A DNA stretch of 35,274 nucleotides, taken from a virus. The stretch covers positions 1-35,274 of the IMG/VR virus record IMGVR_UViG_3300032220_000223; one strand, 5' to 3'. The position numbers were made by a program, and so were the translations under genes. The notes under the pieces are model-generated. The model saw nothing but the letters and a program-made list of their open reading frames with translations, made no database searches and was not told the DNA's origin. Positions 534 to 30,928 of this stretch are shown here, piece after piece. Within the stretch, counting starts at the first letter, position 1. Every line of letters starts with the position of its first letter.

Positions 534-1154
534 ATGGTAACACTAGATTTATTGACACACATGTGTCCCCGAACAAAAGCAAGTATTCTTGAGGGATACT
601 TAGAACCACTAAACACAGTGGCTGAATACTATGACATGAATGTTAATCCAGCAAGATTAGCAGGCTTTCTAGCACAAACAGCACATGAATCCGGTGGATA
701 TACTGCTATTAAAGAAAATCTAAACTATAGTGCTAAGGGACTACGTGGTACATTTGGTAAATATTTCCCCAACGATGAAATAGCTAATCAATATGCAAAG
801 AAGCCAGAACGTATTGCCAATCGTGTATATGGTAATCGTATGAGTAATGGACCAGAAGAATCAGGTGATGGATATCGCTTTTGCGGTCGTGGGTTAATTC
901 AATTAACCGGTCGTGCTAACTATACTAAATTTGCACAAGACTTGGGTATGAGCATAGAAGATACTATTGCTTATTTAGAAACACCTAATGGTGCTGTAGC
1001 AAGTGCCGGATGGTTTTGGGATAACAACAAACTAAATCAATACTGTGATAGTGGAGATTTCGTAACATTAACTAAACGTATCAATGGCGGTACAATTGGA
1101 TTAGAAGATAGAAAACATCACTACGAATTGGCGATGCATTACTTAACAGCATAA
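534..1154 (+). CDS. GH19 chitinase-like endolysin
   Basis: A 206-residue glycoside hydrolase family 19 (chitinase/lysozyme-like) enzyme expected to cleave peptidoglycan glycan strands at lysis. Visible family signatures are FLAQTAHESGGY near residues 45-56, with the putative catalytic Glu in HESGG, the segment GDGYRFCGRGLIQLTGRANY near 109-128, and the C-terminal ITKRINGG-like block, here LTKRINGGTIG. There is no signal peptide or membrane segment, so export would need a holin; a holin-like gene lies at 10765. The start is the first ATG, preceded by AAGGA at 523-527. Its leader can form a hairpin over the ribosome site, suggesting late-only translation. A second GH19 protein with a different N-terminus is encoded at 27371-28147. 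Confidence 0.9.
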   Translation: MVTLDLLTHMCPRTKASILEGYLEPLNTVAEYYDMNVNPARLAGFLAQTAHESGGYTAIKENLNYSAKGLRGTFGKYFPNDEIANQYAKKPERIANRVYGNRMSNGPEESGDGYRFCGRGLIQLTGRANYTKFAQDLGMSIEDTIAYLETPNGAVASAGWFWDNNKLNQYCDSGDFVTLTKRINGGTIGLEDRKHHYELAMHYLTA

Positions 1155-16235: not shown

Positions 16236-16997
16236 ATGAAACTATTTGAAGGTGGAAACATTTGGGATGACGTAGAAACGAACTTTGATCCGTCACGAGT
16301 TGGTAAGCCATTAACCGCTACTACACAAAAATTCTTAGATCCACTTAAAACTAAATTAGAAGTAATCGGTTCATGCTGGAAGCCACGTTATGATAGTGAA
16401 GGCAATGTTGTTCCTTCTAATGATTTAGATTCAATGCTTGAGTTGTCCGATTTAATGCATGTGTTTGGTACTAGTGATGCTAAAACTACACGCAAGGCAT
16501 TAAACGATTACATGCAAAAGCAAGGGCTACAAACAAAACAAGCCGGTGTTACTGTACATACTAGAGTCCCAATGGGTGATAAGTTTTATCAAGTTGATAT
16601 TAAAGTAGTACCCAACGCATCTAAAGTAGCACAATATCATAGACATGATATACCTAAAGGTAGTCCATACAAAGGCGTTAACAAACAATTAGTAATGAAT
16701 GCACTTGCAAGTACACAGGGCATGTTATGGAGTCCTGATGAAGGATTGTACAAGCGTGACAATGCAGGTAAGAAAGCAGAACTACTAAGTGATGATTGGG
16801 ATAGTATCGCAAAATATCTATTAGGTCAAGGTGCATCAGGGCAGGATTTGGGTAGTGTAGAATCTATTATGGCAAAGATTCCCGATCAGAAACGCAAAGA
16901 TGATATAATGAATATGGCACGTGCTGGTCATAGTTGGCAACAAGCTACACCAAACGTAACTGAATGGTTCCGTCGTGCATTGGATATCCTAAAATGA
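16236..16997 (+). CDS. Pol beta-type nucleotidyltransferase-like protein
   Basis: A 253-residue protein with the hallmarks of the Pol beta/MNT nucleotidyltransferase fold: GS at 45-46 (LEVIGSCWKP), a D-x-D at 63-65 (NDLDSMLEL) and a third acidic residue at D121 on a strand (FYQVDIKVV). The 'YHRHDIPKGSPYKG' loop and the later helices (KQLVMNALASTQGMLWSPDE) are not assigned. Members of this superfamily transfer nucleotides to proteins, RNA or small molecules; the substrate is unknown here. The N-terminus MKLFEGG fits a minimal [IL]-x-E/G cleavage site at E5. The stop overlaps the following gene's ATG by four bases, so the pair is translated together. It starts one base after the RyR-like gene. 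Confidence 0.6.
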   Translation: MKLFEGGNIWDDVETNFDPSRVGKPLTATTQKFLDPLKTKLEVIGSCWKPRYDSEGNVVPSNDLDSMLELSDLMHVFGTSDAKTTRKALNDYMQKQGLQTKQAGVTVHTRVPMGDKFYQVDIKVVPNASKVAQYHRHDIPKGSPYKGVNKQLVMNALASTQGMLWSPDEGLYKRDNAGKKAELLSDDWDSIAKYLLGQGASGQDLGSVESIMAKIPDQKRKDDIMNMARAGHSWQQATPNVTEWFRRALDILK

Positions 16998-19525
16998 AAC
17001 CAAGTGATTTCCTAACTGAAGCTACCGCACCTAAGGTAGGTCGCAAGTATCAACACATTGAAGACCTAGTGTTAAGTGACGGTAGTCACGGTGGTTTACA
17101 CGCAGTTGAACGTCTTAAACACATGGGTGAAGAAGGTGGAAGTATTGAATTGAAGTGGGACGGCATGCCAGTAGTATACTGGGGTCGTGACGAACAAGGC
17201 AACTTCAGTATGATTCCAAAAAATGCTTGGGCATATTTAAAGAGTGGCAAGACAGAAACATCTAGTGGTGCACCAACTGTAATGCGTAGCCCGGAAGATG
17301 TTAAAGCATTTGTGTTAGGTACAGGTGGTGGTGATCCTAAAGGTAGACAAAAGTTTGCTAATCAGTTTGCTAGTTTATGGCCATACTTTGAAAAGATAAG
17401 TCCTAAGCAAGGTTACTTAGAAGGTGGACTATTGTTCTATCCTGGTAACAAACCAGACGGTACTAGTGCTATGCCTGTACTAAATCCTGAAACAAACACA
17501 TACGATTTTACTCCTAACATCACTACGTTTCATATCCCGGTTGAAAGTGAATTGGGACAAAAGATTAAAAAATCTAAAGTGATGGTAGCAGCAACAGGCT
17601 ATTATCCTACAATGGGTAGTAGTGACGAACAACGATTGCCCGATGCTGAGAGTTTAAGTGCCCCTGGCGTTATCGTGCAAGGTACTACTTATGTTCAAGA
17701 ACCTGTGCCATTAGATACAAAAGGTCTTGATAGCATGGAGAAGTTTCTCAAAGCAAATGCTAAACTAATAGATAACTATCTAGCACCTAAGCCAGGATTA
17801 AGCAATCCAGGTGGAGAGTTGTATACATATTTGAATAAGCACTTGCGTACTGAAGGATTACTTGCTGACTTTCCTGATTGGGCTAGAGCAAACTTAAGTG
17901 CTAAGAAAGCAGAAACATTATTAAGTGATCCTAAAGGATTGAAAGCAACATTGGGTGCAGTTGAAGGACTAAGCAATCAAAAGAATGTATTGATTAATCA
18001 GCTAAGTCAAGGTACACATGGTGGTATAAAACAAACTAAACCAGAAGGGTATGCACAAGCACATCCAGGTAAACAATTTAACTATGATATGCCCGGACAA
18101 TTTATTAAAACAATTGACCAAACTAACTGGAGTCCAAAAGAATCAGTAGTTAATGAAGCTAAAAAAGGTAGTAGTGCTGTATTAGGTTGGGGTCGTGGTA
18201 TGGGACATACCGGGCATGACGCACTAGTTAAAGCGGTTATACATCAAGCAGAAACTACAGGTGCTACCCCTTACTTTGTAGTATCACGCAGTTTTGGTAA
18301 GGATGATCCTATTCCACCTGAGACAAAAGTAAAAATGTATCAGAAGAAGTTCCCAAAATATGCCAAGATGTTTAGTTTACCTACAACAGAAGCTCCTACA
18401 TTAAATGATGTTTTAGCTAACTTAGCGACTAAAGGAATAACTGATGTTACGTTAGTTGTTGGTGCTGACCAAAAAGATGCATTTGGATATCTAACAAGAC
18501 CAGACAAGTCAGGTGTTCCACCGTATAAGAACTTTGGATTGAATAGTCTAACTGTAATGAGTAGACAAGATACTAAAGAGCCAAGTAGTGACGTAAATAG
18601 TCCTGACTACCATGAAGGACCTCGTGCTACACCAATGCGTGAAGTATTGCTTGATCCTAACAAGACTGAACAAGAACAATTTGTTGTATGGCGTCAAGCA
18701 ATGAGTCCTGCGCTTGATGACAAAGAAGTATTGGATATGATGAATACTGCTAAACAGAATCTTATTCAATTTCACACTCCAAAGCCTAGAAGAAAAGCAA
18801 GCAAGATAAAAGAACAAATTACTAAGTTAAGACCTTTGTTAAAAGAAGCGACAGTTGAGCAAAAGTATAAGATACTTAAGTTGATGAAAGAGGCTTATGA
18901 GTTGCAAGAGAAAATGAAAATGGGTGCCACGATTGAACCCATAGAAGAAGAAAAAGAAATTGATCCAGTTAAAACAGTTATTAAATTTTATGAACCAATT
19001 GTAAATGATATTCATAAAGAAAAGATTGATGACTATGTAGATAAGGCAAGAACTTTATTACAACAAACTGATGATCCTGCTGTTCGTTCTAAGTTAATTG
19101 ATATATTCAAAAAAGGTAAAGAGAATCCATACATTCAAGGTGGTATCATTACTACTGTAGGTGCATTACTTGCAGGTGGATTATTAAGTTCCGCAAGTAA
19201 AATGGGACTTAGTCCGTCACAAACAAACATATTATTACAATCAGTATTGAATACAGTTATACCAACATTGGTATCACGTATTAACGGTAAGAGTTGGATT
19301 GATACACTTAAATATACATTAGCCAGTGCTGGAATAGGTACAAGTATTGCTGCACTAACTGAGAAAGATAGTGATGTTATTGGACATGTAGCGAACGATC
19401 TAACGACCGGTGCTCCTATTGCTAAGTTAAGAGCTGCTAGAGATAGTGAACAAATGAAAAAACGTGAGCAAGATTACGGTCATCCTGAATCACCAACGTT
19501 TGACGATTACTTAGACGAAAAATAA
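16994..19525 (+). CDS. Multidomain protein: ligase-like KWDG adenylylation domain plus HxGH nucleotidylyltransferase
   Basis: An 843-residue protein. The frame opens further upstream, but ATG 16994 overlaps the previous stop and gives the leader MKPSDFLTE/A, very like T4 capsid-targeting leaders. Residues 50-290 resemble a covalent nucleotidyltransferase (DNA/RNA ligase) fold: motif I KWDG at K54-G57 and a later EGGLLFYPG. Near 390 a putative VVNE/A site precedes a second domain (~395-540) with the cytidylyltransferase-type motif GRGMGHTGH, then SRSFGKDDPIPPETKVKMYQ and VVGADQKDAF. A helical region follows (~600-660, with LLKE/A). A Gly-rich hydrophobic segment near 712-735 (GGIITTVGALLAGGLL) may be a membrane helix. 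It looks like a packaged polyprotein; the nucleotide acceptors are unknown. Confidence 0.65.
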   Translation: MKPSDFLTEATAPKVGRKYQHIEDLVLSDGSHGGLHAVERLKHMGEEGGSIELKWDGMPVVYWGRDEQGNFSMIPKNAWAYLKSGKTETSSGAPTVMRSPEDVKAFVLGTGGGDPKGRQKFANQFASLWPYFEKISPKQGYLEGGLLFYPGNKPDGTSAMPVLNPETNTYDFTPNITTFHIPVESELGQKIKKSKVMVAATGYYPTMGSSDEQRLPDAESLSAPGVIVQGTTYVQEPVPLDTKGLDSMEKFLKANAKLIDNYLAPKPGLSNPGGELYTYLNKHLRTEGLLADFPDWARANLSAKKAETLLSDPKGLKATLGAVEGLSNQKNVLINQLSQGTHGGIKQTKPEGYAQAHPGKQFNYDMPGQFIKTIDQTNWSPKESVVNEAKKGSSAVLGWGRGMGHTGHDALVKAVIHQAETTGATPYFVVSRSFGKDDPIPPETKVKMYQKKFPKYAKMFSLPTTEAPTLNDVLANLATKGITDVTLVVGADQKDAFGYLTRPDKSGVPPYKNFGLNSLTVMSRQDTKEPSSDVNSPDYHEGPRATPMREVLLDPNKTEQEQFVVWRQAMSPALDDKEVLDMMNTAKQNLIQFHTPKPRRKASKIKEQITKLRPLLKEATVEQKYKILKLMKEAYELQEKMKMGATIEPIEEEKEIDPVKTVIKFYEPIVNDIHKEKIDDYVDKARTLLQQTDDPAVRSKLIDIFKKGKENPYIQGGIITTVGALLAGGLLSSASKMGLSPSQTNILLQSVLNTVIPTLVSRINGKSWIDTLKYTLASAGIGTSIAALTEKDSDVIGHVANDLTTGAPIAKLRAARDSEQMKKREQDYGHPESPTFDDYLDEK

Positions 19526-20541: not shown

Positions 20542-20625
20542 ATGAGTTGGTTTAGACATAAGCCCCCAAAGTATCCCCCTAAACCACAGAAGCCTGACCC
20601 CAAAAATGAACCTAAAAGAACTTAA
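20542..20625 (+). CDS. 27-residue Pro/Lys-rich small protein
   Basis: A micro-ORF beginning MSWFRHKPPKYPPKPQKP and ending KNEPKRT, stop TAA at 20623-20625. Small proteins starting MSW[FY]-x-x-K/R-P-P recur in T4-like aquatic phages, which is why I call it. It has no Shine-Dalgarno sequence and lies right after a late-type box. It overlaps the next gene (ATG 20606) by 20 bases in another frame, so it may work as a leader peptide coupling translation of the large modular protein. The role is unknown. Confidence 0.5.
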   Translation: MSWFRHKPPKYPPKPQKPDPKNEPKRT

Positions 20626-23362
20626 TAGTTTTAAATTATCTGACGCAGTAACATTCCACGATAAACTTAACCCTAAGTTATGGAATGGTACTAAGTTGCG
20701 CCCAGAAGTTAGAGAACAACTTCTAGTAATAGCACAAGACTTTTTACAAGAATTAGGCGTACATGATTTAGATGTAAAAGATATTACAATATCAGGCAGT
20801 AATGCTGCATATAGCTATACAAAATATAGTGATTTAGATTTACATATATTAGTAGACATGGGTAATTTACCTACCAATGAAGTATACAAAGAATTATTTA
20901 CTGCTAAAAAAACAATATACAATGACACACATGATATAACGATTCATAAAATTCCAGTAGAATTATATGTACAGGATAGTAGACAACCTGTAGTAAGTTT
21001 AGGTGAATATAGTGTAATGAATGACCAGTGGATAAAAATACCCACTAAGCGTAGAAGTGATTTTGACCAAACCGCCACCAAAAGCAAGTATGAAAAGTTA
21101 TTAAGTTTAATAGAGATAGCACTCAAGTCAAAGAAGTATAGTAAAGTAAAACATATAATAGACACAATCAAAAGATATAGACAAGCAGGTTTAGATAAAG
21201 GTGGTGAGTTTGGCCCTGAGAATCTAGCATACAAGATGTTGCGTAGTCAGGGATATATTACGAAGTTGTATGATTTAAGAGACAAGTTACATAGTGAGAT
21301 ATTGACCGTTGAGACAATGTATCAGAACATTGATGAAGAATCAAATCATTGGTATGATGCTGGAGTGAAGGATGCTCAACGTGATGCTAAACTATATCCT
21401 GACAGAGTTGTTAAAAAACTCAACCCACGCACACGTTTGAAAACTATACAAGACAAGCAGGCACGACACCCGGAAGAAGTAGAACAATACTCACTTGGTT
21501 ATAGAAGTCTTAAGCAAGGTGTGGCGGAAGGCTTTTCCAATACTACTTTTCAGACTGAAAGAAAAAGATTAAATGTGCCGGCACTAATTAAAGCAGGTGC
21601 AATATTAGTTACTCATCCACACAGCGAACAAGGTTGGGAAACTGATAACAAAGAAGATTGGGCTTTTAGTTTATTATCATTGTATAATGTTCTACAAGGT
21701 GGCTGGCCTAGTGAAGCTAAAAAGTATCTTAAGCCACAAAGCTATAAGCGAGCAGAGCAACAGATTAATTCTAGTGCTCCAAATCTAGGATCTGATAAAC
21801 TCGTATACGACGGAAAGTATAATCAAATTCTTTGGAGTATTAAAAAGTTAGGTATTCCGGACAATGTGGCATTTTTAGATCAACAAGGTGTGGCGGAAGG
21901 TGAAAGCAATGATACTGCTATAAGTTTATCCAAGCTAGGTAAATTTCATTCAGGCGCAGATGCATTGGCAGAGTTTGTTCCTGAAAGAGCATCTGCACAG
22001 TATGCGTTGCATCCTGACAAATGGGAATCAACCTTTTACAGTTTAACCAACAAAGATTCAGACAAACTACGATACTATGGACCAAAGAAGATTTCAATTC
22101 CCCCAGGAACTCTAGTAGGTGATATGGCTATTGCCAACAAATTTTATAGAGCAAAAACACCTGAAGAAAAACAACAGTATGCTAAGGCATACAAAGCATC
22201 ATTACAGTCTTATCCAGTTGATGTTAACCAATATCGCATGCCTGAGTTATTAATGCCGCGGCAAAATGTAGATGAAGCGTTTGATACTCCACTTCCAATA
22301 ACATGGGAAAAAGGTATGCACGGTGATGTTGATGCACTTGCTAAATTACCAGATGGATCAAATTTAAGCATTATGTTTAATAAACAAGATAATATTAAAC
22401 CCGATGACAAGACATGGATGGTTGAATTTTATAGAAATAACAGTCAAGAAGTAACAGGTGAGGGTGACGCACAAAAAGTATTTTCTACTGTGTTAGTTGC
22501 TATTCAACAATTCATTACAAAATACAAACCACTAAAAATCTATTTCTCGGCAAGCAAATTACTTGATCCAAGTATAAATTACGGTCCAGATGATGTTGTG
22601 CCAAATCCTGAAAGTCGTGCTAAGTTATATGATAGAATGGTACTGCGTTATGCTAAATCTTGGGGATATAAGTTTTTTCGTGCTGATAACGGTGACCTAG
22701 TTATGTATCAATTGTCAAGAATACCAAAGCAGAAGGCTGTAGGTGAAAATCAAACCATGCAGTTTGCTAGTGAAAAAACTTCAGCAATAAATCCATATGG
22801 CGGGCGTAAAGATAATCAATATCGTGGTGCAATGTCAGAAGCCGCAGATAAAAAAATCAGTTTTAAAATACAAAAAGGCAATGGTAAATTCTCTACAACT
22901 TTGACTGTTAATAATTCTCCAGCTGGTATATATCAATATGATAGTAACACAGGGCGTAGCATTGCTGAAGTTTATCCAGAATTCAAAGGCAAAGGATTAG
23001 GTAAATTATTAGTTTTACATGCTATCTACACAGCAGCACAGTTAGGATTAGATTTCCAAGAAGATGAATCAAGAACCAGTGCTTATGATAATGTATTAGA
23101 TAGTTTAAGTAGCAACGGTTATATTGTAGATGACGATGGGTATTGGTACGTAACGGGTGAGGGAGAACAATATTTAAAACAATCATTGAATGAAGCCTCA
23201 GGATATATCCCCTCTGAAAAAGAGAAAAATGATCCTCGTTTTAAGACAGCATTGACAGTAGATGTTCATCCTGATAGTATTAAAAAGAACGCAAAAGCCT
23301 TCTATTGGAACACCAGTAGAGCAGGAATTCCCCCAACTGCCAAAGCAAACGGCAAAATCTAA
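20606..23362 (+). CDS. Modular protein: nucleotidyltransferase, QGVAEG-bounded modules, GNAT-like domain
   Basis: A 918-residue mosaic. Module 1 (1-303) has a Pol beta/MNT-type nucleotidyltransferase signature: ISGSNAAYSYTKYSDLDLHI with G64-S65 and D76-x-D78, and an acidic strand IPVELYV with E119. At residues 304-309 and 427-432 are two QGVAEG linkers encoded by an identical DNA repeat; the enclosed module (FSNTTFQTER...VAFLDQ) has no known fold. A third module (~550-720) starts NVDEAFDTPLPITWEKG. Near 750-880 is an acetyltransferase-like module with the GNAT-style AEVYPEFKGKGLGKLLVLHA. The C-terminus (SGYIPSEKEKNDPRFKTALT...SRAGIPP) looks like a conserved terminal tail. Several x-E/G and x-E/A sites (NEA, DEA, SEA) may be prohead-protease sites. 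Confidence 0.6.
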   Translation: MNLKELNSFKLSDAVTFHDKLNPKLWNGTKLRPEVREQLLVIAQDFLQELGVHDLDVKDITISGSNAAYSYTKYSDLDLHILVDMGNLPTNEVYKELFTAKKTIYNDTHDITIHKIPVELYVQDSRQPVVSLGEYSVMNDQWIKIPTKRRSDFDQTATKSKYEKLLSLIEIALKSKKYSKVKHIIDTIKRYRQAGLDKGGEFGPENLAYKMLRSQGYITKLYDLRDKLHSEILTVETMYQNIDEESNHWYDAGVKDAQRDAKLYPDRVVKKLNPRTRLKTIQDKQARHPEEVEQYSLGYRSLKQGVAEGFSNTTFQTERKRLNVPALIKAGAILVTHPHSEQGWETDNKEDWAFSLLSLYNVLQGGWPSEAKKYLKPQSYKRAEQQINSSAPNLGSDKLVYDGKYNQILWSIKKLGIPDNVAFLDQQGVAEGESNDTAISLSKLGKFHSGADALAEFVPERASAQYALHPDKWESTFYSLTNKDSDKLRYYGPKKISIPPGTLVGDMAIANKFYRAKTPEEKQQYAKAYKASLQSYPVDVNQYRMPELLMPRQNVDEAFDTPLPITWEKGMHGDVDALAKLPDGSNLSIMFNKQDNIKPDDKTWMVEFYRNNSQEVTGEGDAQKVFSTVLVAIQQFITKYKPLKIYFSASKLLDPSINYGPDDVVPNPESRAKLYDRMVLRYAKSWGYKFFRADNGDLVMYQLSRIPKQKAVGENQTMQFASEKTSAINPYGGRKDNQYRGAMSEAADKKISFKIQKGNGKFSTTLTVNNSPAGIYQYDSNTGRSIAEVYPEFKGKGLGKLLVLHAIYTAAQLGLDFQEDESRTSAYDNVLDSLSSNGYIVDDDGYWYVTGEGEQYLKQSLNEASGYIPSEKEKNDPRFKTALTVDVHPDSIKKNAKAFYWNTSRAGIPPTAKANGKI
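21514..21532 (+). repeat. QGVAEG-encoding DNA repeat, copy 1
   Basis: CAAGGTGTGGCGGAAGG (21515-21531), in frame as QGVAEG, followed by C. It uses GTG and GCG codons, which are uncommon in these AT-rich genes. Confidence 0.85.
21884..21900 (+). repeat. QGVAEG-encoding DNA repeat, copy 2
   Basis: The 17-base sequence is identical to copy 1 and in the same frame, exactly 369 bases after it in the same gene. Confidence 0.85.
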
Positions 23363-23386
23363 TAAGTTTCCATATTATGGTATTTT

Positions 23387-23394
23387 GATAAATA
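23387..23394 (+). promoter_or_regulatory. Late promoter box GATAAATA before 23418 gene
   Basis: GATAAATACT in the 55-base gap after the 20606-23362 gene. A T4-like late start would be near 23400, leaving an 18-base leader to ATG 23418. No SD-masking hairpin is seen here. Confidence 0.55.
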
Positions 23395-23417
23395 CTCTAT
23401 AACTTTGGGAAACCGTC

Positions 23418-24926
23418 ATGAGATTTAAGCAAATAATAGAAAATTCCACAACAGCAGGATCAGTCGCAACCGTAGCACAGCCTATGATGACTCAAACCCG
23501 TGAAAGTGTAGATGTCAAGGGACTAAAACCCGTTAAACAATTAATGAAGGGCACTAAAAAGAAAGGTCCCTACGCTAATAGTATTGTTGAAGGAAAAGTT
23601 AAAGAACTTATCAGCGATTTAAAAAACTTAACTTCTTATGATTTTGAAAAGAAACACAAACAATCTAAGGCTGACGTTAGAGCCGACATGAAGAAAGTCA
23701 ACGAAGATGATCTTTCAGAACAAGACTTAATTGTTATCCCGGGACAAGGTAGATTAAGAAAAACTGGATTTGTTAAGCATGACCTGTCTCACGGTGAACA
23801 TGAAGGTGAAACATTAAAGAACAGTTTACACACTATCATTCGTGTAGCAACACATTTAGACAAGAGATTGTCATTGCAATCTGAATTCCCAGAGTGGGTA
23901 TCAGAGAAGATTGGAGCAGTTAAAAGTAACATGGTTACTGTAATGGATTACCTAATCAGCAGCCAAGAGATGCAGCATGATACTGATGCTATGGAAGGTT
24001 CAGAAAACAAATATTCTAACCTATCTAACCGCGGAGTAAATCGTGGAATAAATCGTGCCGCTGATGATTTTGACAGAATGATGGACCTTGATCAAGCAGA
24101 ATCACCACATTATAAAACACAACATCAACAAGATACAAAGCAAAGACTAAAAACAAAACCCATGGCGGGACCAAAAGGTGTATTACCCGAAGGCTCGCAA
24201 TTAGATGAGGGTGCAATGGAAACTATCACTGCCTTAGTCAAGAAGATTCCGGGTATTGGTAAGTATTATCAAATGGCTCAACAATACAAGCCACAACTGG
24301 TACAGATTCTAAAGACCAGCAAGTCTGGCAAAGAAGTTAAGCAAAAGATGGAACAGTTGGCAGCAGGTCAATCTGCACCAGTTGCTGAATCTGGCATGAT
24401 GAAACAACTAGGTGGATTAGCATTAGGCGGTGGTAGTATCTTATCTACATTGTGGATGAATGCTATGGGAATGATTGATGGCGTACTAGCACATGCGGCA
24501 GCAGGTGAAGTTGGTGGCGCAGTAGCGTCCGGTAGTATCTTAGGATTGATTCCTGTAACACTAATGCTGTTTGCGGCAATGTTATTGTTCAAAGGATCAA
24601 AACAAAGCAGTGATGAAAAAGCACAGGCATTTCAAGCACAGCGTGGTCAGCAAGGTGTGGCGGAAGGCGACATGTTTGGTGATGCAGAAGTAAGTTGGGA
24701 AAAAGGCGGTCGTAGAGCGCCAACTGGCGCATTCAGAAATCCAAACTTTGGTAACGTACTTCAAAAAAGTGTAAACAAACACAATAAAGCTATAGTAAAA
24801 ACTAAAAAAGATATAGGTAGTAGAGTTGCTGACATTGGCGCCGGTGGTAAAGAACACAACGTAGATACTGATGCTGCATGGGATACTGCTAAGAAAAAAG
24901 TAAGTGAAGGTTATAAGAAGAAATAA
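23418..24926 (+). CDS. Modular membrane-segment protein with capsid-targeting-like leader
   Basis: A 502-residue protein starting MRFKQIIE/N, similar in shape to the T4 internal-protein leader. The N-terminal half is helical and charged, with a segment (~145-200) reading LKNSLHTIIRVATHLDKRLS...VMDYLISSQEMQHDTDAMEG. A putative site LDE/G lies near 270. Residues ~328-395 contain two hydrophobic stretches (LGGLALGGGSILSTLWMNAM; ASGSILGLIPVTLMLFAAML), likely membrane helices. The QGVAEG linker is at 412-417, then a basic tail (GGRRAPTGAFRNPNFG...KKKVSE/GYKKK). No enzyme motif is recognised. A packaged protein with membrane helices could serve DNA ejection, but that is inference. The stop is one base before the next gene's ATG. 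Confidence 0.55.
   Translation: MRFKQIIENSTTAGSVATVAQPMMTQTRESVDVKGLKPVKQLMKGTKKKGPYANSIVEGKVKELISDLKNLTSYDFEKKHKQSKADVRADMKKVNEDDLSEQDLIVIPGQGRLRKTGFVKHDLSHGEHEGETLKNSLHTIIRVATHLDKRLSLQSEFPEWVSEKIGAVKSNMVTVMDYLISSQEMQHDTDAMEGSENKYSNLSNRGVNRGINRAADDFDRMMDLDQAESPHYKTQHQQDTKQRLKTKPMAGPKGVLPEGSQLDEGAMETITALVKKIPGIGKYYQMAQQYKPQLVQILKTSKSGKEVKQKMEQLAAGQSAPVAESGMMKQLGGLALGGGSILSTLWMNAMGMIDGVLAHAAAGEVGGAVASGSILGLIPVTLMLFAAMLLFKGSKQSSDEKAQAFQAQRGQQGVAEGDMFGDAEVSWEKGGRRAPTGAFRNPNFGNVLQKSVNKHNKAIVKTKKDIGSRVADIGAGGKEHNVDTDAAWDTAKKKVSEGYKKK
24651..24668 (+). repeat. QGVAEG-encoding DNA repeat, copy 3
   Basis: The 17-base sequence is identical to copies 1 and 2, followed by C as in copies 1 and 4. It is in frame as QGVAEG and lies directly after a predicted membrane segment. 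Confidence 0.85.
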
Positions 24927-24927
24927 T

Positions 24928-26919
24928 ATGAAACCTACTGATTTTCTAACAGAACTATCTAACGAAAAGTTAGCACAATACAAAACTGCTGCCTCAGCCG
25001 ATGCCAGTAAAGCAGATAGTGAAGGTGACTTCAAAAAAGGTGACAAGCGTTTTAAAGGTATTAACACAGCTACTAAAAAACAATTTGCCAATGATGAAAA
25101 GAAAGTTGAAGAAGGAGTTGGCTTACCCTCACCCAGTACATACGAAGAAACTAATGATATGTTTAAGAGTAGTGGTCAAAGACGTATTGGTACATTGACT
25201 ACTGAGGATGAACAAATTGATGGCATGGCTCAAGGTGAGATTCGTGAAATTATTAAAAACGCAGTACATATTAAGAATCAATTAGACAAGGGTGTTAGTT
25301 TAGATGGTTGGATGTATAGTTTTGTTACAGTTAGCAATGACAAATTGAATAGTGTAGCAGAACAAATCAATAACCCTAATATTGAAGAACAAGGTGTGGC
25401 GGAAGGCTCCGAGAACAATAATACAACAGCACAAAAAATATTCTTTGCTCGTAGTAATAAAGCACCCAAAGAATGGAGTTATGACCATGTTGGATTTATA
25501 ACTCAAGATGGAAAACAAATTCAAATGAGTGGGCATAAAGGCAATGATGTATATGTCACTAACGATGTGACTGATGATCCGGAGTTTCCTAAACAAAATA
25601 TCAAAATTGTATCATTATCAAAACCAGTATCGGTTCCTACAACTAACTCAGTAGGAGCAGAAAATTGTGGGACATTTGTGGCAAATGTATTACAAGCCAA
25701 TGGTATAAAAGGTATTGATACACAAAAAATATATAGTGTGTTCAAAAAACCTCAAGAGCAAGGTGTGGCGGAAGAGTGGAGCAAGAAATACAAGAGTAGC
25801 ATTAACTGTAGTCACCCAAAAGGCTTTAGTCAAAAAGCGCATTGTGCTGGCAAGAAAAAACATAACGAATCAATTGAAATGGAAATGACTTGTCCAGATT
25901 GTGGTATGTGTCAATCACACGGTGATAATTCAAAAGATAAATTAGATGAATTGAAATGCTGGTCTGGATATCATAGAGTTAAAGGTACAACAGCAGGCTT
26001 CCCGGGTAGTTGTGCCAAAAACAAAACAAATGAAGAACAACATAGTGAGAGTTGCCCACACTGTGGTGGAGAAATGGTTAGTGAAGAATTGATGAATGAA
26101 AAGAAAGATGCTTGCTACTATAAAGTAAAGAGTCGTTACAAAGTATGGCCAAGTGCTTATGCATCAGGTGCATTAGTCAAGTGTCGTAAGAAGGGTGCAG
26201 ATAGTTGGGGAAATAGTAGTAAGAATGAAAGTTCTATACTAGAAGGATTAGAACAAGTAGATGAAAACTTACATCAGTGGTTCAAAGAAAAGTGGGTACG
26301 ATTTGGTCCAGACGGAAAGATCCGCGGTGATTGTGCTAGAGGTGATGATAGCGAAGGTAAACCAAAGTGCTTGCCACAAAGTAAAGCACAGAATTTAGGT
26401 AAGAAGGGTCGTGCAAGTGCTGCTAGTCGTAAGCGTAGAGAAGATCCTAATCCAGAACGTAGTGGTAAAGCTATCAACGTAAACACAAAAAAGAAAACTG
26501 ATGAAGAACAAGTAGATGAGGGTTGGTTCAAAAATACTTTAGCAGGTGCGGCGCTAGCTGGTGCTGCATTGACTGGAGCAGGTCATGCTCAAGCAGCAGA
26601 TTTAAGTCAATTTGGAACTCCTTATTTACAACAAGTTGCTTCAGGTCAACATCCAAGACCAATGGTCAATGTTGATGATGCTAAAGCAGAACTACAAGCA
26701 AGAGAACAGGGTAAACAACAAACTGTTGCTCCTGCAGCGGCTCCAGAAACAACATCAGGGGTTAGTATAGATTATTTAAAGAAGGCAGCTGATCCAGATA
26801 GAACTGGAAGATATTTAATTAGTGTTGAAAAGGCACAAGAAATGTTAAAGCAAGCAACAGCTCCAAGAGCAAGACCCGCATTAAACATCGCACCCGGCGA
26901 TTATCCAGCAGCTAAATAA
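24928..26919 (+). CDS. Modular protein: capsid-targeting-like leader, papain-like module, Cys-rich modules
   Basis: A 663-residue protein. The frame opens at GTG 24904, but ATG 24928 gives the leader MKPTDFLTE, almost identical to that of the 16994 gene. Module 1 (1-154) is helical and ends at QGVAEG. Module 2 (160-277) resembles a permuted papain/LRAT-type fold: a His strand (SYDHVGFITQDGKQIQMSGH, ~184) before a Cys helix (ENCGTFVANVLQANG, ~246). A second QGVAE follows at 278-282. Module 3 has HPKGFSQKAHCAGKKK, a zinc-type CPDCGMC near 322 and CPHCGG near 376, DACYYKVKSRYKVWPSAYAS near 394 and a Lys-rich WVRFGPDGKIRGDCARGDD. VDE/GWFKNTLAGAALAGAA near 529 starts a hydrophobic Ala-rich module shared with the 27371 protein. 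It is probably a packaged polyprotein. Confidence 0.6.
   Translation: MKPTDFLTELSNEKLAQYKTAASADASKADSEGDFKKGDKRFKGINTATKKQFANDEKKVEEGVGLPSPSTYEETNDMFKSSGQRRIGTLTTEDEQIDGMAQGEIREIIKNAVHIKNQLDKGVSLDGWMYSFVTVSNDKLNSVAEQINNPNIEEQGVAEGSENNNTTAQKIFFARSNKAPKEWSYDHVGFITQDGKQIQMSGHKGNDVYVTNDVTDDPEFPKQNIKIVSLSKPVSVPTTNSVGAENCGTFVANVLQANGIKGIDTQKIYSVFKKPQEQGVAEEWSKKYKSSINCSHPKGFSQKAHCAGKKKHNESIEMEMTCPDCGMCQSHGDNSKDKLDELKCWSGYHRVKGTTAGFPGSCAKNKTNEEQHSESCPHCGGEMVSEELMNEKKDACYYKVKSRYKVWPSAYASGALVKCRKKGADSWGNSSKNESSILEGLEQVDENLHQWFKEKWVRFGPDGKIRGDCARGDDSEGKPKCLPQSKAQNLGKKGRASAASRKRREDPNPERSGKAINVNTKKKTDEEQVDEGWFKNTLAGAALAGAALTGAGHAQAADLSQFGTPYLQQVASGQHPRPMVNVDDAKAELQAREQGKQQTVAPAAAPETTSGVSIDYLKKAADPDRTGRYLISVEKAQEMLKQATAPRARPALNIAPGDYPAAK
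25390..25407 (+). repeat. QGVAEG-encoding DNA repeat, copy 4
   Basis: The 17-base sequence is identical to copies 1-3, in frame, followed by C as in copies 1 and 3. It borders the papain-like module on its left. Confidence 0.85.
25759..25774 (+). repeat. QGVAE-encoding DNA repeat, copy 5
   Basis: Identical over 16 bases, then diverging (GAAGAG), so the peptide is QGVAEE rather than QGVAEG. It lies exactly 369 bases after copy 4 and borders the papain-like module on its right. Confidence 0.8.
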
Positions 26920-26930
26920 GGACAACAATT

Positions 26931-27371
26931 ATGTTAACAGAAGATTTAAAAGTATTATTGGCAAGTGTTAACTCATTGTCTATCAAAGCACAAAACTTTC
27001 ATTGGAATGTAGAGGGAGATAACTTCCCTCAATATCACGAATTCTTTGGAAATTTTTATGAAGAAGTATACAGCGCAGTAGATAAAGTTGCTGAATACAT
27101 TCGTACATTAGATAGCTATGCACCCGGCAGCTTAACACGCTATGCTGAATTAACTATCATTCAAGACCAACTTAAGATTCCACGTGCTGAATTAATGTTT
27201 GCTGAATTATTTGAAGATAATGCTAGAATGATTGAATTACTTAATCATTGCTTTGCTTCAGCATCACAAGAAAACAAACAAGGTATCGCTAACTTTATCG
27301 CTGAAAGGTTAGATGCTCACGAAAAACATCAATGGATGATTCGTAGTGTTCTAAAGAAAGCCCGTGCATAA
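26931..27371 (+). CDS. dps: Dps-like ferritin
   Basis: A 146-residue Dps-family protein. Dps assembles a 12-subunit shell that oxidises Fe2+ and can protect DNA. The family core KAQNFHWNVEGDNFPQYHEF is clear, and the inter-subunit ferroxidase spacing is kept: H24, H36, D51 and E55 match H51, H63, D78 and E82 of E. coli Dps. The position equivalent to E. coli D67 is G40 here, so one metal ligand may be missing or supplied by a neighbour. There is no basic N-terminal tail for DNA binding, and the C-terminus is short and basic (RSVLKKARA). It starts MLTEDL and has AAGGA in its leader. Its stop shares a base with the following GH19 gene's ATG. Confidence 0.85.
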   Translation: MLTEDLKVLLASVNSLSIKAQNFHWNVEGDNFPQYHEFFGNFYEEVYSAVDKVAEYIRTLDSYAPGSLTRYAELTIIQDQLKIPRAELMFAELFEDNARMIELLNHCFASASQENKQGIANFIAERLDAHEKHQWMIRSVLKKARA

Positions 27372-28147
27372 TGAGAGCAAAAGAATTTATAACTGAATAT
27401 GGCGAACAAGGATCACGTTGGACAGGTGATGAATATTATCGTCATCTAGTTGAACAGGGTTATAATCCATCAGAACTGTCTGAAGAAGATTTAGAAGAAG
27501 GCTGGAAACAATGGGCTGCCGGTGCTGCACTTGGATTAGGTGCATTAGGAGCACAAGGAGCAATAAACCATGCTCCCGACAAAGTGGCACAACCCAAACC
27601 AGCTATTACTCAACAAGCAGCACAGCAAGTACAAGCACCAACTCAAGTATTAGATGCTACTGAAAGATATCTAGTTAGTATAGCAAAACAATCAGGTATT
27701 AAAGGTGCTGAATTAGCACAATTTTTAGCACAATTAAAGCACGAAAGTTTTGACTTTACTCATATGGATGAGAAGGGTGGTAGTAATTACTATAAGCAAA
27801 AATACGATCCACAATTTGCACCAAAGACTGCTAAGATATTAGGTAATAAACATGCCGGTGACGGAGAACGTTATCATGGTAGAGGTTATATTCAGTTAAC
27901 TGGACGTGATAACTATCGTATGGCGGGGACAGCATTGGGTCTTGATTTAGTAAATAAGCCACAACTAGCTGCTGATCCTGCAAATGCAGCAAAGATTGCT
28001 GTATGGTTTTGGCAAAACAAAACTAAAAATATTACAAACTTTGCAGATACAAAAACAGTAACACATAAAATTAATCCAGCATTAAAAGGATTGAAAGATA
28101 GACAAGAGAATTTTGCAGAATATTCAAAACTTTTTAAAGTAGGATAA
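27371..28147 (+). CDS. Second GH19 lysozyme-like protein with capsid-targeting-like leader
   Basis: A 258-residue protein. The leader MRAKEFITE resembles T4 internal-protein leaders. Near residues 40-65 LEE/GWKQWAAGAALGLGALGA is a hydrophobic Ala/Gly stretch after a possible cleavage site. An Ala/Gln/Pro linker follows, then a GH19 domain (~95-258) with FLAQLKHESFDF (putative catalytic Glu), GERYHGRGYIQLTGRDNYRM, AAKIAVWFWQNKTKN and VTHKINPALKGLKDRQENF. Unlike the endolysin at 534, it carries a leader and hydrophobic segment, suggesting a virion-associated muramidase used at entry. It is co-transcribed with Dps (one-base overlap) and followed after two bases by the secreted nuclease. Confidence 0.8.
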   Translation: MRAKEFITEYGEQGSRWTGDEYYRHLVEQGYNPSELSEEDLEEGWKQWAAGAALGLGALGAQGAINHAPDKVAQPKPAITQQAAQQVQAPTQVLDATERYLVSIAKQSGIKGAELAQFLAQLKHESFDFTHMDEKGGSNYYKQKYDPQFAPKTAKILGNKHAGDGERYHGRGYIQLTGRDNYRMAGTALGLDLVNKPQLAADPANAAKIAVWFWQNKTKNITNFADTKTVTHKINPALKGLKDRQENFAEYSKLFKVG

Positions 28148-28149
28148 AA

Positions 28150-28590
28150 ATGAAAAAAATAATATTATTAATAGCATTGACAATACTATCAAGTGTTGTA
28201 TTAGCAGAAAAACAAAAAGAAGGCGTAACATATGATGCCGTGATAACTAGGGTTATTGATGGTGATACTGTAGCCTTTCATGCACCATTCTTACCTGATC
28301 CATTAAAGAAAGAATTAAGCATTCGTGTGTTTGGTGTTGATACGCCAGAAAAGGGCTTTAGAGCAAAATGTCCTAGTGAAGATCAAAGAGGTCAAGCAGC
28401 AACTGCCTTTACTAAACATGCCATTGAAGTAGCAACTAAACGACAAATTGTTCTTATGGATTGGGACAAGTATGGCGGTCGTGTCTTAGGTGATGTAATA
28501 TTAAATGGGCAAAGCCTTAGACAAATGTTAATTAGTCAAGGATTTGCCCGAGAATATTACGGTGAAGCTAAAACTAGTTGGTGCAATTAA
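28150..28590 (+). CDS. Secreted staphylococcal nuclease-like (thermonuclease) protein
   Basis: A 146-residue SNase-fold nuclease with a classic N-terminal signal peptide (MKKIILLIALTILSSVVLA, cleavage expected after ALA-like VLA at ~19). Catalytic positions are visible: DGDT at 37-40, R59, D64 and E67 in RVFGVDTPEK, and R111 in YGGRVLGDV. Two Cys (74 and 145) could form a disulphide in the periplasm. It would degrade DNA or RNA outside the cytoplasm, for example host or competing phage DNA, or for nucleotide salvage; which of these is inference. Its stop codon shares bases with the stop of the convergent methyltransferase gene. Confidence 0.88.
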   Translation: MKKIILLIALTILSSVVLAEKQKEGVTYDAVITRVIDGDTVAFHAPFLPDPLKKELSIRVFGVDTPEKGFRAKCPSEDQRGQAATAFTKHAIEVATKRQIVLMDWDKYGGRVLGDVILNGQSLRQMLISQGFAREYYGEAKTSWCN

Positions 28591-29315
28591 AGTTTAGTAT
28601 AAACAAAATACAATCTATCATTAGCATCTTTCTTAAAAGTTTCTAATTTTAAATTGTACTTTTCAGCAAACTCATTTACAACTTCAAACGTCCAGGGAAA
28701 TATCTCTACATAAGGTCCAGTCTTATGAGTTATCCCTGGATTTGCACGTAGATAAAACTTTCCACCAGTCTTAAGTAAATCTACGCAATGGCTGAATCGT
28801 CCTTCAATTTCATCTTTGCTATTGAAATTAATACTACCCAATGCTATGATAACATCATGGCTTGCAGGCTTAACTTTGTAATCTAGTATATCTACTTCAT
28901 AGTCAGCACAGTTATTATATGGGTCTATTCCAATGATGTTCTGTATACGACCTTTAAATGGATGATATCCGCAACCAACATCTAATACTTTCTCTGGGTT
29001 CAATTTGTTAATCTCATCAGCAAGTTCCCATCCTGTATGTTCATAGTCACCTGTTCTAGGTTTCCATATCTCACTAAAGAAACGTAAAATATAACGTTCA
29101 GATAAATCTGCTACTATATTGCGTAATGTTCCTGTGTATTCGCATGGTAAACTTAATTCAGCTTCTACAGCATCCTTAAACTTTTTGTATCGTGCGGGAG
29201 TCCAGGGCAGTTCTTCTACAATTGTATCCTCAGTGATAGAAATTTTAGAGTACTTGGGTAAATTAAACGCAAGTTCTAAATTTTCTTTGATTAGGTTAAA
29301 AATTTTTGTGTTCAT
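28587..29315 (-). CDS. Class I SAM-dependent methyltransferase-like protein
   Basis: A 242-residue protein on the minus strand. The Rossmann motif I is EKVLDVGCGYHPFKGRIQNI (~125-145), followed by the acidic motif II GIDPYNN, motif III-like ADYEVDILDY and motif IV-like HDVIIALGSINF. A C-terminal segment GRFSHCVDLLKTGGKFYLRA (post-motif 'LKpGG') is typical. No DNA-methyltransferase NPPY/DPPY motif is present, so small-molecule, lipid/sugar or protein/RNA substrates are more likely. It is one of only two minus-strand genes in the window. Its TAA overlaps that of the nuclease gene within TTAA (28587-28590), and it is divergent from the TctC-like operon. Confidence 0.8.
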   Translation of the reverse strand: MNTKIFNLIKENLELAFNLPKYSKISITEDTIVEELPWTPARYKKFKDAVEAELSLPCEYTGTLRNIVADLSERYILRFFSEIWKPRTGDYEHTGWELADEINKLNPEKVLDVGCGYHPFKGRIQNIIGIDPYNNCADYEVDILDYKVKPASHDVIIALGSINFNSKDEIEGRFSHCVDLLKTGGKFYLRANPGITHKTGPYVEIFPWTFEVVNEFAEKYNLKLETFKKDANDRLYFVYTKL

Positions 29316-29399
29316 AAGATTTTTTTGATAATTTAATATTTTTTTCTGTATTATGGAATAAATAATACTAGTTGTTAATATTTATATAAGGAGATGACA
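29316..29399 (+). promoter_or_regulatory. Divergent promoter region with late-like AATAAATA
   Basis: An AT-rich gap between the minus-strand methyltransferase and the TctC-like operon. AATAAATA lies at 29357-29364, and AAGGAG near 29388-29393 is spaced for ATG 29400 (six bases) rather than for the in-frame ATG 29394, which abuts it. Confidence 0.4.
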
Positions 29400-30356
29400 A
29401 TGAAAAAACTTTTAATATTATTATTACTATTCCCAATTTTAGCTTTTGCATGGCAACCTACTAAACCTATAACAGTTATATTTCCAAATGGTCCAGGCGC
29501 TGGGAATGAAATCAGTTTTCGCATAGTAGCAAAAATTGTAGAAGAAAAGAACCCATCATTTAAATGGGCACCCGATTATAAACCCGGAGCAGACGGCAAC
29601 ATAGGCATGACCCATTTCAACACACTACCCGCAGATGGTTATCACGTTGCTATGCCAAGCTGTCAATCAACATTTGTAACAGCAGAAATTTGGTATCCAG
29701 ATACAGTAAAGTTTGATGCAATGGCGTGGGAAGGTGTTGCTAACATAGGTAAAAGCCCATTAGCATTTTATGCTAGAAATTCTGCTACAGTTGATACTCC
29801 GCAAACACTCATTGCAGAGGTACGTGCAGGCAAACGCCCAATTACATTTGCTGTAGGTGGTGCTGCACATAAGTTAGCAGTTGAATACTTTGTAGCAGGG
29901 GTAAAACCTGCAAAAGATACAGTTGAGACTGTACTATACAAAGGCCCTGCACAAGCAATGCAAGATGTGTTAGGAGGACACGTAGAGTTTGGTGTGTTCC
30001 CTATTGCTGTTGGTGCACCTATGGTGCAGGCAGGTAAAATTAAACTTATTGGACTAGCCAGTGAAGTTAAGATGCCAGGACTAGAAACAGTTCCATTAAT
30101 GAAAGATTATATTTCAGGTTTAAATGTTTATGCTTGCTGGAACTTAATGTTACCAAAAGGTACTCCACCTGATGTACAACAATGGTACAAAGAAAACTTT
30201 GTTCCTGCTATTCGTAGCAATGAAGTAAAAGAACAGTTTGACAAAAACTTTATCTTTATCACACCCGAAGAACACAGTCCAGAAGGTATACGTGCTAGTA
30301 TGACACGCTTACGTCAACAATGGCAACCATTTGCAAGAAAGATTAAACCAGAATGA
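29400..30356 (+). CDS. tctC: TctC/Bug-type periplasmic solute-binding protein
   Basis: A 318-residue protein with a signal peptide (MKKLLILLLLFPILAFA, cleavage about 17). It is a member of the Bug/TctC family that binds carboxylates for tripartite tricarboxylate transporters. Family phrases are visible: KPITVIFPNGPGAGNEISFR at the start, PGADGNIGMTHFNTLPADGY (the 'xGAGGxxGxxxxAxAxPDGYT' block), FAVGGAAHKLAVEYF, VLYKGPAQAMQDVLGGHVEF and KLIGLASE. The start at 29400 is chosen by AAGGAG spacing; ATG 29394 is also in frame. No TctA/TctB membrane subunits are in the window, so it would have to use host permeases or act as a decoy. It overlaps the next gene by ATGA. It is an unusual auxiliary metabolic gene for a phage. 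Confidence 0.88.
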   Translation: MKKLLILLLLFPILAFAWQPTKPITVIFPNGPGAGNEISFRIVAKIVEEKNPSFKWAPDYKPGADGNIGMTHFNTLPADGYHVAMPSCQSTFVTAEIWYPDTVKFDAMAWEGVANIGKSPLAFYARNSATVDTPQTLIAEVRAGKRPITFAVGGAAHKLAVEYFVAGVKPAKDTVETVLYKGPAQAMQDVLGGHVEFGVFPIAVGAPMVQAGKIKLIGLASEVKMPGLETVPLMKDYISGLNVYACWNLMLPKGTPPDVQQWYKENFVPAIRSNEVKEQFDKNFIFITPEEHSPEGIRASMTRLRQQWQPFARKIKPE

Positions 30357-30928
30357 AAATAGGACTATCAATGGAAATGACTCTAAAGTTGCGTGATACA
30401 TGGCATGCAGCTTTAAATCACGAATGGTATGATATATTTGCAAGCCACGACATTGTGCCATTATCATGTCATGGCTCTATGCCTAATACTGATGAATTTG
30501 ATTTAATTGTATTAGCCGGCGGCAATGACATGCCTGATATCAAGACCTGGCGTGACAACAATTACCCCTTACGTGATGATTATGACCGCAAACTAATTCA
30601 ACAATGCTGGTTAACAAATACCCCGATAGCAGGTATATGTCGTGGTTTTCACTTTATGAATTGGGTTTCAGGTGGAACACATATATTAATGGATACACCG
30701 TATGATAGCACACCTGTGCAATTATCAACGTTTGAAGTGGTGTGTCATCATAGTATTCAGATTGCTAAACTTGCACCAGGATTTGAAGTAGTGCAACAAG
30801 ATAATAAAGGTGTTGTTGAGTTAGCAGTAAATAGATCACAGCGTATGTTAGGTGTTGGTTGGCATCCAGAACGTGAAGTCAATCGTCACACTAGAAAATA
30901 CATACTAGATTTAATTAATAAATTATGA
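30353..30928 (+). CDS. Class I glutamine amidotransferase-like protein (peptidase C26 type)
   Basis: A 191-residue stand-alone class I amidotransferase/gamma-glutamyl hydrolase. The nucleophile elbow is GICRGFHFMN (C96), and the other catalytic residues are in GVGWHPERE (H171, E173). The oxyanion-strand motif LIVLAGGNDMPD is at 51-62. The family includes gamma-glutamyl-GABA hydrolases and amidotransferase subunits that release ammonia from glutamine. No synthetase domain is fused, so it may hydrolyse a gamma-glutamyl compound or supply ammonia to a neighbour. It is coupled by ATGA overlap with the TctC-like gene before and the sulfotransferase-like gene after, which argues for a shared pathway. 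Confidence 0.85.
   Translation: MKIGLSMEMTLKLRDTWHAALNHEWYDIFASHDIVPLSCHGSMPNTDEFDLIVLAGGNDMPDIKTWRDNNYPLRDDYDRKLIQQCWLTNTPIAGICRGFHFMNWVSGGTHILMDTPYDSTPVQLSTFEVVCHHSIQIAKLAPGFEVVQQDNKGVVELAVNRSQRMLGVGWHPEREVNRHTRKYILDLINKL

Follow-up and report, generated by a model that had tools for sequence, protein, structure and literature searches.

Uncultured T4-like phages appear to build cargo proteins by module swaps at a near-invariant 16-21 base seam

Why would a single 16-nucleotide string stand five times, letter for letter, inside three genes of one phage whose surrounding sequences are unrelated? The window, i.e., the whole stretch of 35,274 nucleotides analyzed here (IMG/VR virus record IMGVR_UViG_3300032220_000223), carries the 16-mer CAAGGTGTGGCGGAAG exactly at 21515, 21884, 24651, 25390, and 25759 of the plus strand, versus 0.11 copies expected from shuffles, and it contains no sixth copy, even allowing up to 3 mismatches. 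An initial annotation had reported five exact copies in three genes and one frame; this was confirmed at all five positions, each reading CAA GGT GTG GCG GAA G in frame 0, which encodes QGVAE followed by G or E. At base 17, four copies agree on G, as reported, and the remaining one has A. The copies, hereafter termed seams, are spread over three adjacent ORFs (20606-23362, 23418-24926, and 24928-26919) as follows, with a slash marking the predicted cut.

21515 to 21530, plus strand: seam copy 1, QGVAE/G, in P0001, exact 16-mer, frame 0
21884 to 21899, plus strand: seam copy 2, QGVAE/G, in P0001, exact 16-mer, frame 0
24651 to 24666, plus strand: seam copy 3, QGVAE/G, in P0002, exact 16-mer, frame 0
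25390 to 25405, plus strand: seam copy 4, QGVAE/G, in P0003, exact 16-mer, frame 0
25759 to 25774, plus strand: seam copy 5, QGVAE/E, in P0003, exact 16-mer, frame 0

When the window copies are compared, the core is all they have in common, and the flanking modules are indeed unrelated. A spacing of 369 bases occurs twice and corresponds to two modules of 123 residues, between which no sequence similarity is visible. The GTG and GCG codons of the seam had been called uncommon in this DNA; they make up 23% of the Val and 10% of the Ala codons in the seam-bearing ORFs, and are uncommon, yet not rare. The three genes and the modules used below are:

20606 to 23362, plus strand: putative polyprotein P0001, 918 aa, nucleotidyltransferase-like N-terminus (phrog_36119), two seams and more PhixE sites
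21530 to 21883, plus strand: seam-bounded module m1, 118 aa, AF2 mean pLDDT 84, pTM 0.79
23418 to 24926, plus strand: putative polyprotein P0002, 502 aa, one exact seam
24928 to 26919, plus strand: putative polyprotein P0003, from the ATG at 24928 (the listed ORF starts with GTG at 24904), two exact seams
25405 to 25758, plus strand: seam-bounded module of P0003, 118 aa, NlpC-like (by eye only)
25774 to 26022, plus strand: W module as queried (EWSKKYKSSINCSHPKGFSQKAHC..., 83 aa)

Module m1 is predicted to be a compact fold, and its model gave no significant match to the PDB with Foldseek; the AF2 model of the 25405-25758 module was poor.

The phenomenon is far larger than the window alone reveals. 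The exact 16-mer occurs in at least 120 IMG/VR loci, and all 174 copies among the matches listed encode QGVAE in frame within an open ORF. The edges of the seam are softly conserved, giving an extended 21-mer, AGCAAGGTGTGGCGGAAGGCT, which is also found in at least 120 IMG/VR loci (reversed-letter control, 0), and in the newly fetched loci 196 of the 196 copies among the matches listed are in frame as QGVAE. Out-of-frame copies, named beforehand as the observation that would speak against the proposal, were absent from both sets of listed matches. Long IMG/VR records (82-524 kb) carry 1-6 copies each, and the reversed control none. All seam phages found are uncultured contigs; a scan of the annotated phage collection (50,697 records) returned no copy of the seam, with only shifted chance matches at the 16-nt level, and literature searches found neither "QGVAEG" nor a phage polyprotein cleaved by a prohead protease. 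Two origins of the seam were rejected: a bacterial one, with only 3 matches to a 20-mer in GTDB genomes, lacking module context, and a tRNA one, with a longest match of 9 nt to the tRNAs in the loci, no better than shuffled controls. In the bacterial genomes L171, L172, and L173, the seam 20-mer lies in an open frame 0 without module context, probably by chance.

In a test independent of the seam, the 118-aa P0003 module (25405-25758) was used as a protein query. It was found at 30 loci that are 85-99% identical at the nucleotide level inside the module and have many unrelated neighbors on both sides, the switch falling at the seam. In L145, this module sits behind P0001-type sequence, indicating that modules move between genes. 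Among the matches listed, 227 distinct exact junctions were compared: recurrent flanks are joined to at least two, and up to 12, unrelated partners in 25 of 26 cases on the left and 23 of 24 on the right; for the pattern-fetched set alone, the promiscuous flanks among the matches listed are 10/10 on the left and 14/14 on the right. The recoded QGVAE 16-mer CAAGGTGTTGCAGAAG served as a control, and here promiscuous flanks number 1/8 on the left and 1/10 on the right among the matches listed. More than one copy per locus was seen at 0/120 loci with the recoded string versus 36/120 with the exact seam, again among the matches listed. Because both strings reach at least 120 loci, raw scan counts are uninformative, and recoded copies are mostly in frame too (101/120 among the matches listed); it is multiplicity and shuffling, not frame alone, that tell the seam from its recoded control. 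Pairwise identity across the seam runs from 0.91 to 1.0 to 0.29 (random), with both sides alike in only 1 pair, and the edge bases travel with their own module, which places the exchange point within the core. The suggestion of a homologous-recombination seam is therefore supported, as neighbors change exactly at the seam, also between genes, and colinear relatives with drifted seam codons, which would have argued the other way, were not encountered. On three contigs (L303, L317, and L318) a recoded QGVAE string accompanies an exact seam, and the recoded copy is possibly a decayed seam.

Is it the peptide or the DNA that is conserved? From codon usage, the exact string of five codons is expected at 0.7% of QGVAE sites, and it was observed at 173 of 206; this 206-site set was itself fetched by the exact string, so module-fetched sets provide the fair codon test. 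Where QGVAE occurs at W-module loci that were fetched independently of the seam, 16 of 16 bases are exact in 8 of 9. Over the 33 codons to the right of the seam, the protein is nearly unchanged and synonymous codons are ~ 40% identical to those of the window; all five seam codons would then match by chance with a probability of ~ 0.01 per locus, and the exact seam was observed at 7 of 8 loci. This upholds the earlier argument that peptide selection alone is insufficient. Moreover, of the 165 codons for K, E, or Q that directly precede a seam, 140 are NAG (~ 25% expected), the first base being free except for T, which would make a stop codon. The NAG bias and the exact seam beside diverged synonymous codons indicate that DNA identity reaches past the peptide. 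Diverged seams nevertheless exist (EGVAEG, QGMAEG, KMLAES), in which the Glu is kept and the DNA is not; the DNA string is thus no absolute requirement. Homogenization by exchange followed by decay would fit these diverged seams better than a strict DNA requirement.

We consider it probable that the products of the three genes are polyproteins packaged in the head, their modules brought together by recombination at a dual-coded seam, with packaging, cleavage, injection, and an ordinary recombination route as the presumed steps. The proteins would be strings of autonomous modules of a T4-like phage, packaged in the head and often placed behind a capsid-targeting-type N-terminus, and the module joints would be sites for a gp21-type prohead protease cutting after Glu. 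The QGVAE/G joint would be encoded by the near-invariant 16-nt core, or ~ 21 nt with its soft edges. Since most active joints share an identical core, we propose that any recombination between two seams swaps whole modules in frame and leaves the cut site intact. Modules would thereby spread among genes and phages, and exchange would keep the seam uniform, whereas seams that no longer exchange would decay in their DNA and retain the Glu cut site. The exchange itself would proceed by ordinary short-homology recombination rather than by a dedicated enzyme; against this stands the length of the seam, as 16-21 nt is little by the standards of classical homologous recombination.

The alternative that survives best is that a dedicated enzyme, a homing-type endonuclease or site-specific recombinase, recognizes the seam DNA and drives exchange, the role of the peptide being secondary. 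A conserved non-palindromic element of ~ 16-21 nt, with synonymous and non-codon-aligned bases conserved (AG at -2 and -1, a free base at -3) and the exchange located inside its core, speaks for this reading, and HNH/GIY-YIG-like ORFs, recognized by eye, lie beside gp23 in the seam phages L164, L165, and L166. A pure DNA site would, however, allow copies outside frame 0, of which there are 0 in the loci examined; moreover, no enzyme linked to the seams was identified, and diverged seams persist. We therefore regard this explanation as doubtful. Equally doubtful is its fuller version, a phage-wide in-frame module-exchange site of exon-shuffling- or integron-like character, its DNA read by a dedicated enzyme and its peptide by the head protease, serving injected effectors; a dedicated enzyme, if real, would be categorically new.

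The prohead protease gp21 of T4 cleaves after L/I-X-E, and CTS peptides send proteins into the head (PMC9026906). The seam peptide fits the T4-type rule PhixE/, with V at P3 rather than the L/I preferred by T4 gp21 (PMC9026906), and the earlier remark that it resembles a prohead-protease site is supported at the sequence level by several features. Of the 25 long seam records, 13 encode gp21 (PF03420), and those 13 also encode gp23 (PF07068), the remaining records possibly being fragments; neither turned up in what was scanned of the 35-kb window. The gp23 N-termini of seam phages have predicted LLAE/SSAG-type maturation sites (PhixE, positioned by analogy with T4). In the W-module junctions listed, P1 is Glu in 67 of 67, whether they follow CTS-like starts or internal sites. 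With QGVAE masked, PhixE followed by G, A, or S occurs 363 times in seam ORFs versus 144 after shuffling (2.5-fold; 1.4-fold in other ORFs). A broad motif for CTS-like starts is present in 65% of seam ORFs versus 27% of others, and a strict pattern is only modestly enriched (16/85 versus 81/910, i.e., 19% versus 9%, p = 0.006). MRAxEFIxE-like peptides also open about 9% of the non-seam ORFs in L006-L155, which suggests a large repertoire of head-packaged proteins. Several sites of this kind in the window lie in or near the following features:

26521 to 26600, plus strand: Sec-like segment GWFKNTLAGAALAGAALTGAGHAQA (from the sequence), directly behind a VDE/ PhixE site
27371 to 28147, plus strand: GH19 endolysin-type protein (Pfam PF00182, 4e-15), no exact seam
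16994 to 19525, plus strand: multidomain protein (DUF6267, cytidyltransferase-like), no exact seam

CTS-like starts are seen in P0002 (MRFKQIIE/N), P0003 (MKPTDFLTE/L), the 16994 ORF (MKPSDFLTE/A), and the GH19 protein (MRAKEFITE/Y), the last of which also has LEE/GWKQWAAGAALG ahead of its enzyme domain; the N-terminus of P0001 shows no clear CTS resemblance. Additional sites in P0002 include LPE/G, LDE/G, and VAE/S, and P0003 combines modules rich in Cys and Lys with the Sec-like segment after VDE/G. Segments of this E/GWK... type are also present in L266, L281, and L064, with GWR in L072. Of the two endolysin-type proteins of the window (534-1154 and 27371-28147), the first has neither the CTS-like start nor the Sec-like segment that the second carries.

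Signal peptides inside the chains provide a further line of evidence. Tat-like segments have a PhixE site at most 10 aa upstream in 9 of 11 cases versus a 17% background, a post hoc statistic, as the final signal-peptide filter allows Ala/Gly-rich segments; independently of that filter, the NCBIfam model TIGR01409 (NCBI TAT) scores above cutoff internally in five chains, at residues 211, 215, 344, 464, and 772. The chain of L142 (311-3511) comprises a deaminase, ParB_N, a TAT signal, then LysM and SLT, and in L081, GSLEEIDRRGFLKGL comes right after an exact seam. Twin-arginine signals in mid-polyprotein, right behind PhixE sites, were noted in L142, L210, L212, L221, L238, and L081. Tat signals require a free N-terminus, so cleavage at the preceding PhixE sites would make sense of internal ones. 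Sec-like and general hydrophobic segments showed no enrichment behind PhixE sites (8/34 versus a 24% background). Furthermore, gp160 of S-CREM2, a cyanophage homolog of P0003 modules, is present in the virion proteome by mass spectrometry (PMC10665884).

These features bear on a second alternative, in which modules are indeed shuffled at the DNA seam and the peptide is a flexible linker whose domains stay joined without proteolysis. We judge this improbable, given that Glu is invariant at P1 while its surroundings vary, that internal Tat signals stand right behind PhixE sites, and that the same boundary also follows CTS-like starts. Still less probable, and strongly disfavored, is peptide selection only, with QGVAEG as a convergently favored protease linker and no further cause of DNA identity: retention of the P1 Glu in diverged joints agrees with it, but codon identity lies far above both codon usage and neighboring synonymous sites, a synonymous base outside the peptide is conserved, and recoded QGVAE does not shuffle. 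Chimeras of metagenome assembly at a short repeat are scarcely credible: every junction does come from assembled contigs, but a repeat of 16-21 nt is below the usual assembly k-mer length, the reading frame is always intact, and several junction types are 100% identical across different metagenomes (e.g., L215/L216/L217, L234/L235, L030/L114, L042/L072, L126/L128/L153, and L144/L145).

The proposed protease-cut seam shares features with several known systems; in its operation it would combine traits of T4 internal proteins and of polyvalent proteins, with a shuffling that recalls T4-type mobile cassettes. In T4-type mobile regulatory cassettes, which are intergenic promoter/stem-loop elements, a short common sequence mediates shuffling between T4-type phages. 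The seam resembles them in being short, common, and associated with module shuffling among T4-type phages, and differs in lying inside ORFs, coding and in frame; inverted repeats visible in the 21-mer do not exceed 3 nt. Like seam phages, T4 encodes a gp21-type protease and gp23, and its internal proteins (IPI-III, Alt; PMC9026906, PMC3012670) are diverse cargo with an N-terminal CTS ending in PhixE, which the starts of several seam chains resemble; they are single proteins shedding a propeptide, whereas the seam chains have many modules, internal sites, and a common DNA seam. Head proteolysis in phiKZ and SPN3US (PMC5694885, PMC9026906) also cuts many head proteins of large phages after Glu (x-X-E); it is described mainly as propeptide removal, without shuffled strings of modules. 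The polyvalent proteins encoded by phages and by conjugative elements (PMC5512222) are multidomain, probably injected, endowed with disparate activities, and built by modular accretion; several unrelated domains per chain, as in those proteins, are seen in L142. Embedded zincin-like peptidases are credited with releasing their parts, and the paper yielded no statement on linkers acting as joints (PMC5512222). No Pfam match to a zincin-like peptidase was obtained in P0001-P0003 or 9 other polyproteins, with divergent ones able to escape this search, and the absence of a visible embedded peptidase sets the seam polyproteins apart from strict polyvalent proteins.

Should our reading hold, a single short sequence would allow unrelated phages to put effector polyproteins together as from building blocks, any seam-seam recombination staying in frame and leaving a cut site. 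The seam would then be a searchable tag for many head-delivered effectors of obscure function encoded between seams, it would make the gain and loss of domains by phage genes directly measurable, and it would offer a natural viral case of combinatorial protein evolution as well as candidate packaging linkers. Downstream of P0003, the 26931-30928 region of the window holds genes for a Dps/ferritin (26931), an SNase (28150), a TctC tricarboxylate receptor (29394), and a glutamine amidotransferase (30353).
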